32,428 bases of DNA from a virus. The translations under genes were made by a program, and so were the position numbers. Below the pieces are notes generated by a model. It was not told the DNA's origin. It saw only the letters and a list, made by a program, of their open reading frames with translations, and searched no databases. The stretch is from IMG/VR virus record IMGVR_UViG_3300042292_000230, positions 1-32,428 of that record, one strand, 5' to 3'. Below, in pieces: positions 7,579-13,858 of this stretch; the stretch's first letter is position 1; each line of letters opens with the position of its first letter.

Positions 7579-7924
7579 AAATCATAACTTGTAATGGGGC
7601 ATCATTTACTCCAGCAACCTCTTGTCTTTCGATGTAACCTCTTCGCTTGCCTTTGGTCTTTAAGAAAAATATAGTTGCAGTTGTGTCTCCGTCTAATATC
7701 TTCTTATGGAGTTGAGACTCTGCGAAGTCAAGGGTTACGTCGTTTAATGAGTCTACTGCTTCGCTATATGCTTCGTCGTCGTGCAACCAGCGGTAATGAG
7801 TCTTTCGGTCAATACCTACTGACTTACAAGCGGTTGTAACAATGCCAAGGCTCTTTTCGAGGGCTTGTAACATAGCCTCCTTTTTTAGTGAGGCATTTTG
7901 TGGCTTAGTTTCCTTCTGACTCAT
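7565..7924 (-). CDS. Terminase small subunit-like HTH protein
   Basis: This 119-residue protein carries a helix-turn-helix at about residues 27-47 (GIVTTACKSVGIDRKTHYRW), then an acidic helix, and DGDTTATIFFLKTKG followed by a basic GYIERQEV stretch. That order is typical of phage small terminases that recognise packaging sites. If so, it is far from the large terminase, which lies on the opposite strand at 18903. It overlaps the IbrB-like gene by 20 bases, so it is transcribed at the end of the modification cassette. A transcriptional regulator with the same HTH is the main alternative. Confidence 0.65.
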   Translation of the reverse strand: MSQKETKPQNASLKKEAMLQALEKSLGIVTTACKSVGIDRKTHYRWLHDDEAYSEAVDSLNDVTLDFAESQLHKKILDGDTTATIFFLKTKGKRRGYIERQEVAGVNDAPLQVMIYDKL

Positions 7925-8576
7925 GGTTGTCTTTGTATTCTTTTGCTAACTTTATTTGACGTTTGGTCTGCCAAGACTTGCGGTATTCTGCGTCTTTGAA
8001 TAGTTTAGAGAAACCAGTAAGGTGCTTTAATTTAAGTATCTCTTCTGGCTCCATGCCTAAGTGGTTGCATATCTCTTCGTCCTTCCAGCCGTTTTCTAAC
8101 ATTTGAAAGACCATGCTTGACATACCAGAGACGCTATGTGCCCCTCTTGCTCTGTTGTGGCGAACGGTTGCGGCCATACGTTCGTTAATATCCTTTTCAA
8201 TAACTACTATTGGCAATAGCCCCATATTGCGTTCGCTTATGTCAGCGTTCATCTTGCAAGTAAAGTACCTATGGAAGCCGTCTACTATGACATATTTCTG
8301 GGTCTCTTCGTCATAGATAGTAACAATAGGCTGGGTGTATCCGTCGTGCTTAATACTTTTGTATAGCAGACCCATTTCTATCTTGGCCACACTATTAGGA
8401 TTGTAGTCATTAGGTTGTACCATGTCTACTGGCACCCAACGAACAAAGTCAATAGGCTGGCTTCCAACTGGGGAAAGCGTGCGGTGTATAAATTCTCGAA
8501 GTTCGTTAATGAACTCTGCCTTGTTTTCGGCTTGCTCGAAAGCCTTATTTAGCTCTGTCTGGTAAGTATGCGCCAT
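7905..8576 (-). CDS. ibrB: IbrB-like ParB/sulfiredoxin-fold protein
   Basis: The 223-residue protein has a ParB/Srx-type domain at about residues 45-150: VQPNDYNPNSVA, then VDGFHRY at 98-104 (the G.HR signature) and RHNRARGAH at 139-147. A helix-turn-helix follows (WKDEEICNHLGMEPEEI). The match to IbrB is made safer by the neighbour, because IbrA and IbrB are encoded as a pair in E. coli and in many phages and islands. In E. coli the pair was reported to affect expression of Eib immunoglobulin-binding proteins. The biochemical reaction is unknown to me. The G.HR motif is shared with ParB proteins that use CTP and with sulfiredoxin-like enzymes. The start at 8576 overlaps the IbrA-like gene by 32 bases. 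Confidence 0.8.
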   Translation of the reverse strand: MAHTYQTELNKAFEQAENKAEFINELREFIHRTLSPVGSQPIDFVRWVPVDMVQPNDYNPNSVAKIEMGLLYKSIKHDGYTQPIVTIYDEETQKYVIVDGFHRYFTCKMNADISERNMGLLPIVVIEKDINERMAATVRHNRARGAHSVSGMSSMVFQMLENGWKDEEICNHLGMEPEEILKLKHLTGFSKLFKDAEYRKSWQTKRQIKLAKEYKDNHESEGN

Positions 8577-9720
8577 ATCTCATGTTTATTTCGTAATTCT
8601 CTGGGGTTATTTTGCCGTCAACGTACTTTTTGAGCGTGTTGAACTCTGGTCTTGTCACGAGGTTTATAATCTTAGTTCCGTCCCAGTCGCTTGACAGAAT
8701 GGAGTTAATCATGGTTCGGTAAAAAATACTTATTGCTTTGTCACTTATGAGGTACTTTTTATATCTTTCCGTCCATGAGTCGACAAGTGTGCGGTTTGTT
8801 TCCTCTTGTACTAAATGGTCTTTGAGGTACATGGCATATTCCTCCCAGTCTTGAAACATAGGGGGCAATACTTTGGGACAATGGTATGAGTTCTTTTTGA
8901 GGTGCTTAATAGTATTTGCTCCGTCAATACGCTTGGCAATACGCTCCCAAGTCTTAGGCTCTATTTCTTGCACTAACAATAGGTTCTGAATAGCGGTCTC
9001 ATGGTGCAGATTAGAAATGCGCATATCAATAACGTTCACTCCATGCCTATACATTTCGTCGTACACTCTATTGTAAGTCCATTTGTTGTCATGTATTGCT
9101 TTCCAGACGTCATTAACGCTCCAGTCATAAATAGGGTAAAAGGTATAATGCTCCTTAGCCTTGTTTAATACTTTGCCATAGGTTAGGTGCTTATAAGTTA
9201 AACCGCTTGTTAATGACATTAAACGTTTTGGAGACTCTTCGGTGCGCACCCCAGCTAAATAACAACTCTTTAAGTTGCCAAACTCTATTTTGAAGATAGC
9301 TTCGAATAGTTCGTGAAACCTCTCTGTGCCATATTTATTCTCTGTCTTGGCAATAGGGTCTTTGGGGTGTATCCATTTTTCCTCTTTGCCGTCCTCCCAG
9401 CAATGATTATAGCGTTCATAACTTGACGCATTGTTAGTAATGACCATTGGCATTTGAAACCAGTATGGGTCAACGTCTGGGTGGTGCATTACTTCGCTTA
9501 CTAAGTCCATAGTACCTTGCCACTCTGCCTCTTGGTCAATGAATAATACTTTGAGAGGTAATCTGTTTTTCTCCTTAGCCACTATGAGTGCTAAATTTAG
9601 AGTTATGGTGCTATCCTTGCCTCCAGAAAAGCCAACAACTATGTTTGGAAATTCGTCAAAGAGGTAACGTATGCGGTCTAACGCAGCGTCAAATACATTC
9701 TGTTTGTTAAATATGCGCAT
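8545..9720 (-). CDS. ibrA: IbrA-like PAPS reductase-family protein
   Basis: This 391-residue protein has the PP-loop SGGKDS at residues 32-37, the ATP-pyrophosphatase signature of the PAPS reductase family. FIDQEAEW, CYLAGVRTEESP and FYPIYDWSVNDVW follow as in that family, and the C-terminal part resembles the DUF3440 extension of IbrA. The family activates a substrate by adenylation or moves sulfur, as DndC does in DNA phosphorothioation. No cysteine desulfurase or other Dnd gene is present, so phosphorothioation in the classic sense is not supported. It is encoded directly upstream of its usual partner IbrB, in a run of DNA-modification-like genes. The substrate is unknown. Confidence 0.85.
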   Translation of the reverse strand: MRIFNKQNVFDAALDRIRYLFDEFPNIVVGFSGGKDSTITLNLALIVAKEKNRLPLKVLFIDQEAEWQGTMDLVSEVMHHPDVDPYWFQMPMVITNNASSYERYNHCWEDGKEEKWIHPKDPIAKTENKYGTERFHELFEAIFKIEFGNLKSCYLAGVRTEESPKRLMSLTSGLTYKHLTYGKVLNKAKEHYTFYPIYDWSVNDVWKAIHDNKWTYNRVYDEMYRHGVNVIDMRISNLHHETAIQNLLLVQEIEPKTWERIAKRIDGANTIKHLKKNSYHCPKVLPPMFQDWEEYAMYLKDHLVQEETNRTLVDSWTERYKKYLISDKAISIFYRTMINSILSSDWDGTKIINLVTRPEFNTLKKYVDGKITPENYEINMRYGAYLPDRAK

Positions 9721-9722
9721 GG

Positions 9723-10136
9723 TTAGAAATAAAAAGAGTGTTCAACAGAGGTAATACCATTTTTATATGTCTGCACCTCTTTGAAACCTAAGTCTTTGTA
9801 TAGATTAACTGACATAGTAGTACAATGCGCAGTTACTTTTCGAACTTTGAATTGGCTATAAACATAATACATTCGTGCGCTTAATAGCTTCTTGCCGTAT
9901 CCCTTTTGTCTTAAAGGCTCTGGGGTATAGTCACCCTTTAATAATGCCGTCTTGCCCTTTATAATGAAGCCACCAATAGCTTTAATTTCGTCGTCCTCCT
10001 TTAATACCATGTACTGCACACGTTTACTGGGTAAGATACCCTCCTTTTGAGAGGCATCTATTAAATGCGCTATGTCTTTTTGGTCGACAAGTTCGACATT
10101 GTATTTCAGAACGTCTGGAGGAAATGTTATAATCAT
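9723..10136 (-). CDS. GNAT-fold acyltransferase
   Basis: A 137-residue protein with the acetyl-CoA pyrophosphate loop RQKGYG at residues 76-81 and the late GNAT helix NLYKDLGF at 111-118. The preceding strand GGFIIKGKTALLKGDY fits motif D/A geometry. Substrate cannot be read from sequence. Position between a DNA methyltransferase and IbrA makes a DNA-base or DNA-modifying role attractive, since the Mom protein of phage Mu has a GNAT fold and alters adenine. Protein acetylation or a toxin-like role is equally allowed by the motif. Two bases separate it from the IbrA-like gene. Confidence 0.75.
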   Translation of the reverse strand: MIITFPPDVLKYNVELVDQKDIAHLIDASQKEGILPSKRVQYMVLKEDDEIKAIGGFIIKGKTALLKGDYTPEPLRQKGYGKKLLSARMYYVYSQFKVRKVTAHCTTMSVNLYKDLGFKEVQTYKNGITSVEHSFYF

Positions 10137-10141
10137 GGCTT

Positions 10142-10684
10142 TTATTTAATGACTTTAATGAGTTTAGCAAATCTTGCTGCGTTTATTTCACTACCGATAT
10201 ACTGCCAACCAGCTTTTTGAACTGCGTTAGCCGTTTGGCCAATTCCAGCAAAAGGGTCAAACGCTATTCCAGTACAACCTATTTGTTTTAATGACTCTGT
10301 TATTAATGCATATCCTTTAAGGTCTGGAATATGAATTGTATTATTGAAGTCATTGAATACCATTATGACATAAGGCCGTCCCATGCTTTGAGTGCGTTCG
10401 TAAACGGCATTAAGCGTATGTCCGTTACTAACCATACTTTGTATGAGTAGGTCTTGACCCTTAACACTATAAGCAATTATACATGGCTTTTTAGTGTCAC
10501 TTAGTTTTCCTAACTGGTTTAGAATTTCGTTTATAGTGTGGTACTTTTGTATGCCAGTATTCTTTTTAAGCATGGTCTGGAACATTGACAACGCTTGTTG
10601 TTGCCAAGGAGGGTCAGTACAAATGATGTCGTACTCTGGGAACGCCTCCCAGTCCATGATGTCTTGATTGAATGCTTTTACCAT
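10142..10684 (-). CDS. DNA methyltransferase (DPPW type, permuted)
   Basis: The 180-residue protein has the catalytic DPPW at residues 24-27 and the SAM-binding FDPFAGIGQT at 142-151, in that order. Catalytic motif before SAM motif is the beta-class arrangement of amino-methyltransferases, and DPPW points to methylation of an exocyclic amine (N6-adenine or N4-cytosine). It is short, without an obvious target-recognition domain, so specificity is unclear. It overlaps the glycosyltransferase gene by 7 bases, and the GNAT gene follows after 5 bases. It may protect phage DNA or prepare a base for further change by the neighbours. No restriction enzyme partner is seen nearby apart from the VRR-NUC protein. 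Confidence 0.85.
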   Translation of the reverse strand: MVKAFNQDIMDWEAFPEYDIICTDPPWQQQALSMFQTMLKKNTGIQKYHTINEILNQLGKLSDTKKPCIIAYSVKGQDLLIQSMVSNGHTLNAVYERTQSMGRPYVIMVFNDFNNTIHIPDLKGYALITESLKQIGCTGIAFDPFAGIGQTANAVQKAGWQYIGSEINAARFAKLIKVIK

Positions 10685-11394
10685 TTGAGATTGTCTGTTT
10701 TATCAAAGTATCTTTTGCTTAAATCTTGAAAAGGTCTGTTAAATTCTTTGTTCCAGTCTACTTCTGTGACGTCAAAATCTTCGTTGAAGCTAAATGAAGT
10801 ACGTTCATTGCCACCACAGACACGAGGATTGCCAAATAAACTGGAGTCAATACCTAAATGCTGGGACAATGTAGGAGTTACAACGTAAAGAGGAATGCCT
10901 TTGAAAGACATATATCTGCTTATTACTCCGTCCTCCGAATATCTTTTTAGGGTTACTTCGTTATTGTCATAAAAGTTGATTAAATCTGCTTCTAAGACTT
11001 TTGGAAAAGCGTGACATGGAAGCCAGAAATTACTAAATACTTTGACAACGTGGTGTCCACTTTCAACTGCCTCTCTATATTTCTTATTCGTGGGGTGAAA
11101 GAAACTGACAATGTTTTTCTGGAATGAATAACGAAGCACGTATTCAATTTTAGCAAATAGGTCTGACGTTATACTCATGTCGTCATGTAGAATTAGCTTC
11201 CATTTGTGCTCCGTCTGGTAACGAATGATTGACATGTAATTGTCTTTAAGTCCCTTGTACCTATTTTCGTCACGAGTGTCTTTGTAATCTGAATAGTCTG
11301 TAAAAACTTTGTATGGCCAACCTATTGCCTCCAGTTTTTCAACTTGGGCAGATATGTCACGCTTATAATGGTTCATTATACAGATTAGCATCAC
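10678..11394 (-). CDS. GT-A type glycosyltransferase
   Basis: The 238-residue protein starts with a Rossmann-like strand (LICIMNHYKRD). It has a DxD-like HDD at residues 70-72 within KLILHDDMSI, then YSEDGVISRY and PTLSQHLGIDSSLFGNP near the end. These are hallmarks of GT-A sugar transferases that use a metal-bound nucleotide sugar. No membrane segment is present, so a cytoplasmic acceptor is likely. Between a small unknown gene and a DNA methyltransferase, phage DNA is a natural acceptor candidate, as in phages that glucosylate modified bases. A virion protein or host glycan is the alternative. Confidence 0.75.
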   Translation of the reverse strand: MMLICIMNHYKRDISAQVEKLEAIGWPYKVFTDYSDYKDTRDENRYKGLKDNYMSIIRYQTEHKWKLILHDDMSITSDLFAKIEYVLRYSFQKNIVSFFHPTNKKYREAVESGHHVVKVFSNFWLPCHAFPKVLEADLINFYDNNEVTLKRYSEDGVISRYMSFKGIPLYVVTPTLSQHLGIDSSLFGNPRVCGGNERTSFSFNEDFDVTEVDWNKEFNRPFQDLSKRYFDKTDNLKW

Positions 11395-11660
11395 ACTTTG
11401 GCTCTGTTAATTATTCGAGTAATTGTCATATCATTACCCATTGTCCAATACTTATAACCATTGGCATAGAAATAAACAAAGGGTTTCTTAAAAAAGTATT
11501 CTGTCTTGCCATGTTCTCTCATGAATAGAACAACGTCTACAAATTCATTGTCGCTTGCCCACTCTTTTCTTTCTGACCATGCGTGAGGAATGTTTGCCAT
11601 TGTTTTAGCAAAGGTAAACTTTTGTTTTTCCAGTAACTCTGTAACTCTTTCGTTTGTCAT
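11391..11660 (-). CDS. Small conserved-looking protein with YKYWTMG motif, 89 aa
   Basis: The protein contains MANIPHAWSERKEW near residue 21 and ends with NGYKYWTMGNDMTITRIINR and a short basic tail. I remember short proteins with this pattern beside DNA methyltransferases in mobile elements, but I cannot name a Pfam family for it. It is cytoplasmic with many aromatic residues. It overlaps the glycosyltransferase start by 4 bases and is one base from the ParB-like gene, so it belongs to the modification operon. The function is unknown; a DNA-binding or accessory subunit would fit. Confidence 0.65.
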   Translation of the reverse strand: MTNERVTELLEKQKFTFAKTMANIPHAWSERKEWASDNEFVDVVLFMREHGKTEYFFKKPFVYFYANGYKYWTMGNDMTITRIINRAKV

Positions 11661-11661
11661 A

Positions 11662-12183
11662 TTATATACTAAATTCGTTTGCGCAATTAGGACAGATAAC
11701 GTCTGTCGTTTGTTGTTGACTTATCATTTGTTTGGCTAACTCCATTGCCTTTTGTTCTATTTCAGCTCTGGTAACTTCGCTGGTGTCAATATCTGGAGCA
11801 AGAAGTGGCTCATAGTCAACTCTGGGTACGTCAATACCCCATTCGCCTAAGTCTTTTGCCTCCCATTCGTTTGCCAATACGTCCCAGTCCCATTCGCCAA
11901 AAGAGGAATTGTCTTTAATGACAAACTCTTTTTGTTGCTCTTCGGTTAATTCAGAGGCTTGTATAATGTATATGTCCGTCAATCCAGCCTCTTTACACGC
12001 TCGGAGTCTCATATTACCTCCTAAGACAATCATTTCATTATTGACCACAATAGGACGTATGCGAAGCATATCTGGAAACTCTTTAATAGACTTAACAAGT
12101 TTACGGAATTTGTCATCTTTAATTACTCTGGGGTTTTCTGGGTTTGGTTTAACCTTACTAATCTTGACACTTTCAATTTTCAT
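11662..12183 (-). CDS. ParB/Srx-fold protein with C-terminal zinc ribbon
   Basis: The 173-residue protein has NPRVIKDDKFRKLVKSI, then VVNNEMIVLGGNMRLRACKE (GGNMRLRA at 55-62), and IKDNSSFGEWDWDVL at 89-103. This is the ParB-like domain found beside phage and island DNA methyltransferases. The C terminus ends CPNCANEFSI, half of a zinc ribbon (C164, C167). It is the first gene of the modification cassette and lies just below a TATATTTG box, with a leader of about 10-20 bases. Two ParB/Srx-fold proteins in one cassette, this one and the IbrB-like one, is notable. Role suggested: DNA-binding or nuclease/targeting component. Confidence 0.8.
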   Translation of the reverse strand: MKIESVKISKVKPNPENPRVIKDDKFRKLVKSIKEFPDMLRIRPIVVNNEMIVLGGNMRLRACKEAGLTDIYIIQASELTEEQQKEFVIKDNSSFGEWDWDVLANEWEAKDLGEWGIDVPRVDYEPLLAPDIDTSEVTRAEIEQKAMELAKQMISQQQTTDVICPNCANEFSI

Positions 12184-12198
12184 ATAAATAATTTAGTA

Positions 12199-12206
12199 CA
12201 AATATA
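12199..12206 (-). promoter_or_regulatory. Promoter -7 box for the modification cassette, in a palindrome
   Basis: The minus strand reads TATATTTG, 16 bases before the ParB-like ATG. It sits in the inverted repeat TTTAGTA-6-TACTAAA (12192-12211), which could be an operator. I see no TTG at 20-base spacing. The same box recurs at 12510-12517. Confidence 0.6.
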
Positions 12207-12209
12207 CTA

Positions 12210-12503
12210 AAATAATTGAATTTACCTAAGTATAGATGTACGAGTAGGAATGAGAGTGTCCTTCAAATAGCGTAAACTATCTGTCGGCATTCCTTACGAA
12301 TTTACCTCTGGTATGAGTGTTTTCGTGTAGGCTAAAGTGTCAATACAGACCTTTAACGTGGTGGCAACTGGTATAGAATGTATCTTCTATTGTACTCTTA
12401 CGACTTCCTCCTTAATGCTATCGTTGGCCTTTGGTACGTCCCCTTGTAAGCCTTAATCTAAACACGCAAGCGTTAATCCGTCCATGTCTAAATGAGTCGA
12501 AAC
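12210..12503 (-). ncRNA. Candidate structured noncoding RNA or long leader, about 295 nt
   Basis: The gap 12184-12555 holds no convincing gene in a genome where genes otherwise overlap. Minus-strand folding shows several hairpins: GAGT-UUCG-ACUC right after the presumed start (12494-12505), AACGC-UUGC-GUGUU (about 12462-12475), AUAGAA-GAUACA-UUCUAU (12373-12390), and AGGAAUG/CAUUCCU (12246-12252 with 12288-12294) enclosing AGAUAG-UUUACG-CUAUUU. Some stems contain G-U pairs that would be A-C mismatches on the plus strand, which favours the minus strand. A 10-base sequence AGGUAAAUUC occurs twice. TATATTTG boxes lie at both ends. It could be a free RNA or the 5' leader of the modification operon. 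No known RNA family was recognised. Confidence 0.5.
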
Positions 12504-12509
12504 TCGGTA

Positions 12510-12517
12510 CAAATATA
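12510..12517 (-). promoter_or_regulatory. -7 box upstream of the noncoding region
   Basis: The minus strand reads GGTTAGTATATTTG, a perfect TAnnTTTG within the extended TTAGTATA motif shared by other promoters here. The start of transcription would fall near 12503, just at the UUCG hairpin. No good -33 TTG is seen. Confidence 0.55.
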
Positions 12518-12555
12518 CTAACCTTATAACGAGTTAGCATATAAAGTTTTCAACA

Positions 12556-13023
12556 CTAAATTTCTGGAGTAGTTTCTTCTGCTGGGGGTGGCTCTGGAAG
12601 TTCTAAGTCTGGGAGGCTTGACAATATCTTGTTTATTGTCTGCTTTATACATGAACCACAAAACTTAGGTTTGGTTTGTTGGCTATAAAGACGGCTATAT
12701 AATTCATAAAGCCAAACAACTTCGTCTCTATTGGCAGAAGGCTTTTTATTAAACTCCAGCACAGACTTGCGTATCTCAATAATTTCCTCTTTTGAAAGTA
12801 TTGCGTCCCACTTACTTGCTGGACAACTCCAGATACCTTGTTTAGCTTTAAGTGGCATTACGCAACCGCATAAGTGAATTGACTTCTTTTTATACTTAAC
12901 TTCGGTAGTAACCTCTTTGCCAATAATTAGTGGGCCACAAGACTTCGTTGTTGGCTCGTAAAACTTGCAAGCATAACATATTGCCAGTCTGCGTTTATAT
13001 TCCTCTTGTTTAACAAATAGCAT
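12556..13023 (-). CDS. Cysteine-rich putative zinc-binding protein
   Basis: A 155-residue protein with C16-x2-C19, C29, C52-x-C54 and C67 in the first half (RLAICYACKF, SCGP, LCGCVMPLK, WSCPASKW) and a further CxxC at 122-125. The C terminus is proline- and glutamate-rich (ELPEPPPAEETTPEI). Proteins with this cysteine layout are common hypotheticals in Bacteroidota phages; I know no function. It overlaps the sigma-like gene by 14 bases and ends just before the noncoding region. A nucleic-acid-binding or transcription-related role is a guess from the company. Confidence 0.65.
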   Translation of the reverse strand: MLFVKQEEYKRRLAICYACKFYEPTTKSCGPLIIGKEVTTEVKYKKKSIHLCGCVMPLKAKQGIWSCPASKWDAILSKEEIIEIRKSVLEFNKKPSANRDEVVWLYELYSRLYSQQTKPKFCGSCIKQTINKILSSLPDLELPEPPPAEETTPEI

Positions 13024-13501
13024 TTTGTATTCTTTTTTTAGCGGTTTTGATTGTCGTATATAAATAGTCCTTTGGTATTCCAGTTTCCTTGCTCAATTTG
13101 TCATAAGAGAAATCTGTAAATATGTATTCCAGAAATACCATGCGTTCAAATTTAGGTAATCTTTGAATAAGCAAATCTAACTGCTCGTTAGTTAGCCTTG
13201 CTCCCAGCCACGTTGTGTCTAATTCTGGATAGTTATTATGTAATTCTCTTTTGTTGCGGTCATAGGCTATGTACTGCTTAAAAAACGTGCTTTTAGGAAA
13301 GTGTACCGACCTATACATTGCTTTAATGACATAAAACTCAAATTCATCTTTTGCTATAAGGTGTTCCAGTTTAGAGTTCTGCATTACAGACGCTAAACAT
13401 TCATGTAGTAAGTCCATGGCAAAGTCTTGTCCCCTTGCAATGTTATGTGCAACCTCTTTGAGTCTTTCATATTTACTTGCAATGTATTGGTTACGTTCCA
13501 C
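13010..13501 (-). CDS. Sigma-70-like RNA polymerase factor
   Basis: The 163-residue protein has a helical N-terminal half resembling sigma region 2 (ARGQDFAMDLLHECLASVMQ, then FYVIKAMYRS). The C-terminal part is like region 4: LIQRLPKFERMVFLEYIF, followed by FSYDKLSKETGIPKDYLYT and a basic KTAKKRIQ helix (residues about 107-160). This is the size and plan of ECF sigma factors. It follows the nuclease gene directly (stop 13502, start 13501) and comes before the late genes. A role in late transcription is likely, since late minus-strand promoters here have good -7 boxes but poor -33 boxes. Sequence divergence keeps this at moderate confidence. Confidence 0.7.
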   Translation of the reverse strand: MERNQYIASKYERLKEVAHNIARGQDFAMDLLHECLASVMQNSKLEHLIAKDEFEFYVIKAMYRSVHFPKSTFFKQYIAYDRNKRELHNNYPELDTTWLGARLTNEQLDLLIQRLPKFERMVFLEYIFTDFSYDKLSKETGIPKDYLYTTIKTAKKRIQNAIC

Positions 13502-13858
13502 TTAACGAAAGTATGACATTATTTCTTTGATTGCATCAATAGCACCATAACAAATTATTGCTTTATAACCTCGTTTGTTAAGTTCCTCTTGCCACCACTT
13601 TTGTTCTGGAGAAACTTTGCCACCCTTAGTTCGCTTCATTTCTATTGCTAAGCCTTTGAATTGTGCATTCGGTTCGTATAAAAATAAATCTGGAAAGCCA
13701 GCGACATAACCATTGGCCACCATTTTCTTAGCTTGTTTCCATGAAGTGCGCACCCCTCCGTTACTGGAGCAGAATAATGCCGTTGGAAAGTGTGTCTTTA
13801 TGAAACGTATTACTGCTTGTTGCTCGGTATCTTCCAGTCGTGGCTTAGGTTTTATCAT
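13502..13858 (-). CDS. VRR-NUC domain nuclease
   Basis: This 118-residue protein is almost entirely a PD-(D/E)xK fold of the VRR-NUC type. GFPDLFL has the catalytic D57, IEMKRTKGG has E73 and K75, and VSPEQKWWQEELNKRGY follows with Q86 as in the family. An N-terminal glutamate (EQQAVIRFI) completes the site. Stand-alone VRR-NUC proteins are frequent in phages and act on branched or structured DNA, for example in replication or before packaging. It is the first gene leftward from the divergent promoter, with a perfect TATATTTG at 13891-13898. Confidence 0.85.
   Translation of the reverse strand: MIKPKPRLEDTEQQAVIRFIKTHFPTALFCSSNGGVRTSWKQAKKMVANGYVAGFPDLFLYEPNAQFKGLAIEMKRTKGGKVSPEQKWWQEELNKRGYKAIICYGAIDAIKEIMSYFR

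Follow-up and report, generated by a model that had tools for sequence, protein, structure and literature searches.

A far-diverged, pseudoknotted branch of the Betaproteobacteria-1 RNA superfamily at a phage locus whose counterpart in a related clade exchanges RNA bodies

Structured RNAs encoded by phages include the phi29-type pRNA, which acts as RNA. The Betaproteobacteria-1 RNA (Rfam RF02932) is a catalogued but uncharacterised family, described by an Rfam model of 120 positions. GOLLD and ROOL, whose function is poorly understood, are large ornate RNAs carried by phages and prophages, in many cases close to tRNA genes (PMC12286853). Here, we analyze a stretch of viral DNA of 32,428 nucleotides (IMG/VR record IMGVR_UViG_3300042292_000230; hereafter, the window) containing a gap that appears to encode an RNA of ~280 nt. 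Like pRNA, this RNA is structured and phage-encoded, but it has no constant link to a packaging ATPase gene, the similarity between the two being compared through Rfam only. It shares a genomic habit with GOLLD and ROOL, since five of its relatives have tRNA-like genes directly upstream, but those RNAs are far longer (~660–800 nt) and their Rfam families gave no match in the window. The closest likeness is to RF02932. The two share the order P1, P2, and an AAG-bearing P4 hairpin, as well as a P0 pairing kept by compensation. The loops have diverged: GUCGGG..ACGGCAG and ACUGUGGGA, letters largely imposed by the family search pattern, are replaced by GACGGA..ACGCUUG and ACAAGGGGA in the window. 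The window RNA is also over twice as long as the Rfam model and carries a 3′ domain (P6–P8) common to the Bacteroidota branch.

The gap (12184–12555) holds no open reading frame (ORF) of at least 50 aa and separates ORF 12556–13023(−), which ends at 12556, from ORF 11662–12183(−), which starts at 12183, bearing out the preliminary description of a region without genes. The same description had proposed minus-strand structure, and this also holds: the minus strand folds at −93 kcal/mol compared to −74.2 ± 5.1 for dinucleotide shuffles (z = −3.71), none of 100 shuffles folding as well, whereas the plus strand is unremarkable (z = −0.14). A tRNA/tmRNA search of the window returned none. The boxes reported at both ends of the gap are identical 15-mers, TTAGTATATTTGTAC, both on the minus strand, found exactly twice in the whole window, one per gap end (12507–12521 and 12196–12210); two copies were seen in one of 100 shuffles. 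The upstream copy is promoter-like, with a Bacteroidota −7 type element, TANNTTTG, that would place the start of transcription near 12505; TATATTTG is the −7 box type of Bacteroidota promoters, and most relatives have a comparable box, TATATTTG or TATCTTTG, ahead of the RNA locus. The second copy stands directly before the downstream ParB-like gene and, by eye, lies inside a 7-bp inverted repeat (TTTAGTA-CAAATA-TACTAAA, 12195–12214), a possible operator.

The RNA body spans 12226–12497 on the minus strand, as judged by direct homology to one relative, L463; its 3′ end would fall between ~12245 and 12207. A UUCG hairpin, GAGUUUCGACUC, forms the presumed 5′ end (12494–12505). The conserved core (12398–12493) is the portion matched by covariance models built without the window. 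It opens with the P1 stem (12483–12493/12456–12466), which encloses the loop GACGGAUUAACGCUUG, the counterpart of GUCGGG..ACGGCAG in the wider family. From this loop, CUUG (12467–12470) pairs with CAAG (12443–12446) to form the P0 pseudoknot. P2 follows (12448–12452/12426–12430), with the loop ACAAGGGGACGUACCAA, and a second pseudoknot, P3, joins GUAC at 12434–12437 to GUAC at 12392–12395; with 4 bp, compared to 6 bp in the relatives checked, P3 is the weakest helix in the window. P4 (ACGA 12421–12424/UCGU 12400–12403) bears the conserved loop UAGCAUUAAGGAGGAAG, while a third pseudoknot, P5 (GGAGG 12407–12411/CCACC 12360–12364), contains one A-A mismatch and is perfect in relatives. Beyond the core lie a six-pair hairpin, AUAGAA/UUCUAU (12373–12378/12385–12390); the P6 hairpin, UUAAAG/CUUUAG (12332–12356); and P7 (12288–12294/12246–12252) around P8 (12277–12282/12265–12270), a unit spanning 12245–12296 and followed by the conserved AGGACACUCU. 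The hairpins named in the preliminary description, namely the UUCG and six-pair hairpins and the long-range stem with its enclosed hairpin (P7 and P8, both kept by covariation in relatives), all exist, but the central part, comprising P1–P4 and the pseudoknots P0, P3, and P5, had been missed.

The preliminary description had asked for covariation among relatives, and it is present. P1, P0, P2, P4, P6, P7, and P8 pair at homologous positions in the window, in two further contigs, L463 and L473, and in the type C RNAs of a related clade (see below), despite differing letters. An alignment of 26 sequences contains double compensatory changes in 21 of 22 core pairs; paired cells amount to 88.6% compared to 57.7% in shuffles, and the covariation score is 0.756, as opposed to 0.188 in shuffles and 0.12–0.20 with slid partners, figures to be read with the fact that the alignments (A7, A9, A10) were fitted to the model structure. 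P0, which connects loop 1 and loop 2, is absent from both the fitted model and the Rfam structure. It reads CUUG/CAAG in the window, where most of the superfamily has GCAG/CUGU; all four positions pair in 26/26 sequences and three covary, L463 and L473 having been fetched by P0 letters and the window not. A descriptor derived from L463, L473, and type C has one match in the whole window, at the correct place, and matches one of 3000 shuffled gaps. These comparisons argue that the gap encodes a conserved, structured, strand-specific RNA. Together with homologues and the preceding promoter-like box, covariation lends support to the earlier suggestion of a free noncoding RNA of an unrecognised kind.

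Homologues were not readily found. Direct blastn and nhmmer searches of the RNA against GenBank phages and the first relatives returned promoter or chance matches only, and the Cys-rich protein encoded upstream of the gap recovered no relatives as sole query. Related IMG/VR phages were reached through the ParB-like and portal proteins; ten portal relatives contain the sigma-like upstream gene, whose alignment gave 80 loci. Among the loci then collected, the best unselected match to the window RNA came from L168, whose syntenic RNA is of type C (nhmmer E = 0.003). The core of the window RNA then supplied a pattern, AACGCTTG..TACAAGGGGA, that retrieved L473 and L463. The latter, which has the same upstream gene order as the window, matches it on its own along 272 nt (12497–12226; nhmmer E = 2.5e-12), and L473 matches both the covariance model R1 (E = 4e-4) and type C (E = 6e-12). 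R1, which predates these bridging sequences, gave at best 2.7 bits (E = 0.17) in the gap and was set aside as a test model, being too strict, with invariant letters imposed by the search pattern.

Two later models, both built without the window, find the RNA. R2 gives a sole match, at 12399–12493(−), with 22.2 bits and E = 5e-4 (next best 8.2 bits); a filtered R2 search of the window's own record, unlike the unfiltered search, found no match, probably on account of its loose first look. Fourteen other loci that carry the same 18 selected letters served as a control; L463 alone among them scored well (29.1 bits; next 11.7). R2, though blind to two further sets of relatives, groups D and E, recovers 11/11 group-D and 2/8 group-E loci tested. 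R3, a model of the Bacteroidota branch, scores 58.0 bits (E = 1.2e-10), the next best hit in 32 kb reaching 10.7 bits. A profile of 26 group-D and -E relatives matches the window at 12487–12249 (E = 9.8e-23), and separate profiles of groups D and E do so at 2.7e-13 and 4.5e-13, respectively. Because L463, L473, and groups D and E were fetched by patterns of 17–18 fixed letters from the window or from the window plus L463, these scores are inflated in those letters; the matches still span ~240 nt.

A final scan yielded 22 group-D and 14 group-E contigs. Upstream of the window's RNA lie, all on the minus strand, genes for a Cys-rich protein of 155 aa (12556–13023), a sigma-70 region-4-like protein (13010–13501), and a VRR-NUC nuclease (13502–13858), syntenic in relatives; the order VRR-NUC, sigma-like, Cys-rich protein, gap is common to the clade. 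Group D has visible upstream neighbours in 19/22 contigs, the others being too short; a sigma-like gene lies upstream in 18/22 and a Cys-rich gene in 21/22. Group E (L483, L487, L489, L528, and ten more) has the same kind of RNA in a different genomic context, with no match to the window's upstream neighbour genes; its RNAs start right behind a TATATTTA-like box, without a 5′ module. Elsewhere, the position of the window's UUCG hairpin is taken by other elements, either a pseudoknot with a U-tract or tRNA-like genes. An H-type pseudoknot (GYCAARNN pairing with NNYUUGRC across a C-run/G-run helix) and then a U-tract follow the promoter-like box at the 5′ end of type A, type C, and most group-D RNAs, as well as in L473, a module that looks like a promoter-proximal terminator or 5′ stability element. 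In L463 (5620–5850), L490, L509, L535, and L539, tRNA-like genes with the acceptor stems AGUCAGG/CCUGACU stand directly upstream of the RNA; default ARAGORN did not call those of L463.

Rfam returned nothing at gathering score in the window and nothing in the gap even at E = 5, in keeping with the 'kind not recognised' of the preliminary description; the window RNA is tied to RF02932 through bridging sequences, namely type C, L473, L463, and groups D and E. Type C scores 26–31 bits with the RF02932 model, below the cut-off of 49.4. A pattern from the type C core led to many other phage contigs, six of which match RF02932 at 87–104 bits. Acidovorax phage AP1, where the RNA lies downstream of a primase gene, was the sole annotated phage found; real members also occur in contigs named Burkholderia, Kordiimonas, Acidobacteria, Bryobacterales, and Rhodospirillaceae. 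A pattern scan of genome contigs gave mostly chance hits, five of the 80 loci tested being real. The RF02932-like RNA is thus widespread among phages. An HMM from the near-identical type C set proved too narrow as a family model. Membership of RF02932 in the wide sense is indicated by a significant covariance match to models without the window (R2, R3); P1, P2, and P4 in order with compensatory changes; and the P0 loop–loop pairing. From sequence comparison, the window RNA thus appears to be, by descent, a far-diverged, pseudoknotted branch of the RF02932 superfamily in phages of Bacteroidota, the probable hosts, i.e., a new diverged branch of an RNA family already catalogued. As a separate observation, members L278, L295, L326, and L313 share GGUGGCGAAG..CGAA.RCUGRCG with 16S rRNA 721–755, matches that are individually near noise. 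We rejected 16S rRNA mimicry (GGUGGCGAAG..CGAA.GACUG.CG): it concerns one recurring site in several related members, but lies near shuffle maxima and is absent from the Bacteroidota branch.

Gaps in the clade related to the window are laid out alike: a TATATTTG box, at most loci an H-type pseudoknot and U-tract, and then a body of type A or C. Type C is marked by UCGUCGGGAGUAUUGAACGGCAG...ACUGUGGGA...AAAGGAAUAAGCC. Type A, marked by CUUCGUAAGUCAAAGCGAAGUAACC..., follows the Cys-rich gene in L134–L140, L145, L147, L149, L157, and others, and ends in a long conserved pyrimidine tract. Its hairpins covary (CUUCG..CGAAG/CUGCG..CGCAG and GCCCUU..AAGGGC/GCUUC..GAAGC), and it is a second conserved structured RNA. 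A small type A ORF (MTTLA...) was discarded as an explanation, since by eye L149 lacks its start codon, and a premature stop truncates it in L145 and L147-type sequences. Type B (L133, L139, L141, and nine more) occupies the same site on the opposite strand as a conserved element of ~400 nt; a TATATTTG box precedes its start, and by eye its 5′ end may form a pseudoknot, ACTCGTTAA/TTAACGAGT across TTGCCCC/GGGGCAA. Types A and B had no credible match in Rfam.

On the tree of the Cys-rich gene, the distribution of types A (41), B (12), and C (17) needs 21 changes, compared to a minimum of 2; shuffled labels need 26, and one of 200 shuffles is as low as 21. The types are therefore nearly, not wholly, free of phylogeny. 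Type C bodies are 95.5% identical, compared to 83.7% for the adjacent gene, and type A bodies 92.3%, compared to 84%. Among the records searched, C RNAs are absent from A and B genomes, and A RNAs from B and C genomes. These patterns indicate that one slot swaps unrelated RNA bodies between phages of the related clade, as distinct from the window's own closest relatives; neither this exchange locus nor types A and B found a counterpart among known systems. The preliminary description had held that unrelated filler in close relatives would speak against an RNA. Some members of the related clade do have such filler (types A and B), but there it is another conserved RNA-like element, and ~20 contigs keep the window's kind of RNA at the locus.

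The reading we favour, and consider reasonably probable, is a freestanding, trans-acting phage RNA of ~260–300 nt, with its own promoter, that belongs to a branch of the RF02932 superfamily, occupies a body-exchange locus, and plays an accessory role directed at the host or a rival. It would be transcribed from the minus strand, from ~12505, by a host-type (Bacteroidota) promoter. Its 5′ end would be protected by the UUCG hairpin in the window, and by a pseudoknot or a tRNA elsewhere, and it would fold into the core P1, P2, P4, and P0, with the further pseudoknots P3 and P5 and the 3′ hairpins P6–P8. Acting in trans, it may engage a component of the host or of a rival during infection, and bodies might be swapped because the opponent changes. 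Host takeover or counter-defence would be the likeliest role; the exchange pattern is as expected for host-directed or counter-defence factors, without proving them, and this functional part of the reading rests on exchange in the related clade and on there being no constant neighbour. More tentatively, the locus may be a socket for RNA: a single slot, often with a shared promoter-proximal pseudoknot/terminator-like module, where arms-race selection drives the swapping of structurally unrelated RNAs, at the least A, B, and the RF02932-like C/D kind.

Several observations would also suit a selfish or mobile RNA, of little benefit to the phage and spread by recombination or with a homing endonuclease: bodies are near-identical even where the phages have diverged, unrelated phages carry the RNA sporadically, and an HNH-like gene adjoins it in L473. 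We regard this as unlikely, given that the window's RNA is not directly followed by a nuclease or transposase gene, the same genes enclose the locus across deep divergence, and three different elements in one slot fit exchange at a selected site.

The downstream neighbourhood bears on a second alternative, a cis-regulatory leader or attenuator: the RNA would then form the 5′ untranslated region of the ParB-like/modification operon's mRNA and switch its expression. Directly downstream of the RNA, on the same strand, lies the ParB-like gene (11662–12183), and ParB-like genes also follow the RNA in L484, L498, L535, and L305. The gene opens a minus-strand cluster (7905–12183) that encodes two ParB-like proteins, a short N6/N4 methyltransferase fragment, a GNAT protein, and a PAPS-reductase/DUF3440 protein. 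Yet a perfect second promoter copy stands between RNA and gene, types A and B replace the RNA while the neighbourhood stays, and the downstream gene is not constant, being an HNH-like endonuclease in L473 and replication or other genes in proteobacterial phages; neither the constant downstream gene nor the uninterrupted stretch expected of a riboswitch or cis-leader is found. The L473 ORF (1702–2238(−)), identified by eye, lies near a capsid-like gene. A leader, which the preliminary description had offered as its alternative, is thus left without support and appears improbable. The exchange pattern, the varying downstream gene, and the second promoter argue instead for an accessory trans-acting RNA in an exchangeable cassette.

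We give little credence to a core role for the phage, for instance in packaging DNA (pRNA-like) or in priming replication. Primase or helicase genes do neighbour the RNA in L306, L313, L264, and Acidovorax phage AP1, and terminase genes are a few kb from the RNA in L296 and L312. However, the position relative to terminase and replication genes is inconstant, and replacement by unrelated A or B within a clade is hard to reconcile with an essential core role unless all three share one job. Finally, a DNA element (an origin, partition, or recombination site) with accidental strand bias is very improbable: the ParB-like gene next door and the adjoining tRNA-like genes of the five loci above, which could mark recombination sites, would suit it, but stable folding of one strand, G-U pairs, and a loop–loop pseudoknot with compensatory change are properties of a folded RNA.

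The window RNA connects an orphan Rfam small RNA with phages whose hosts differ widely, supplies pseudoknots and a long 3′ domain absent from the Rfam model, and reveals that current Rfam models miss the Bacteroidota-phage branch. Close relatives that exchange three types of element at a single site offer a natural experiment on phage RNA function. If the proposed socket is real, RNA cassettes would be an exchangeable weapon of phages, as anti-defence proteins are elsewhere.
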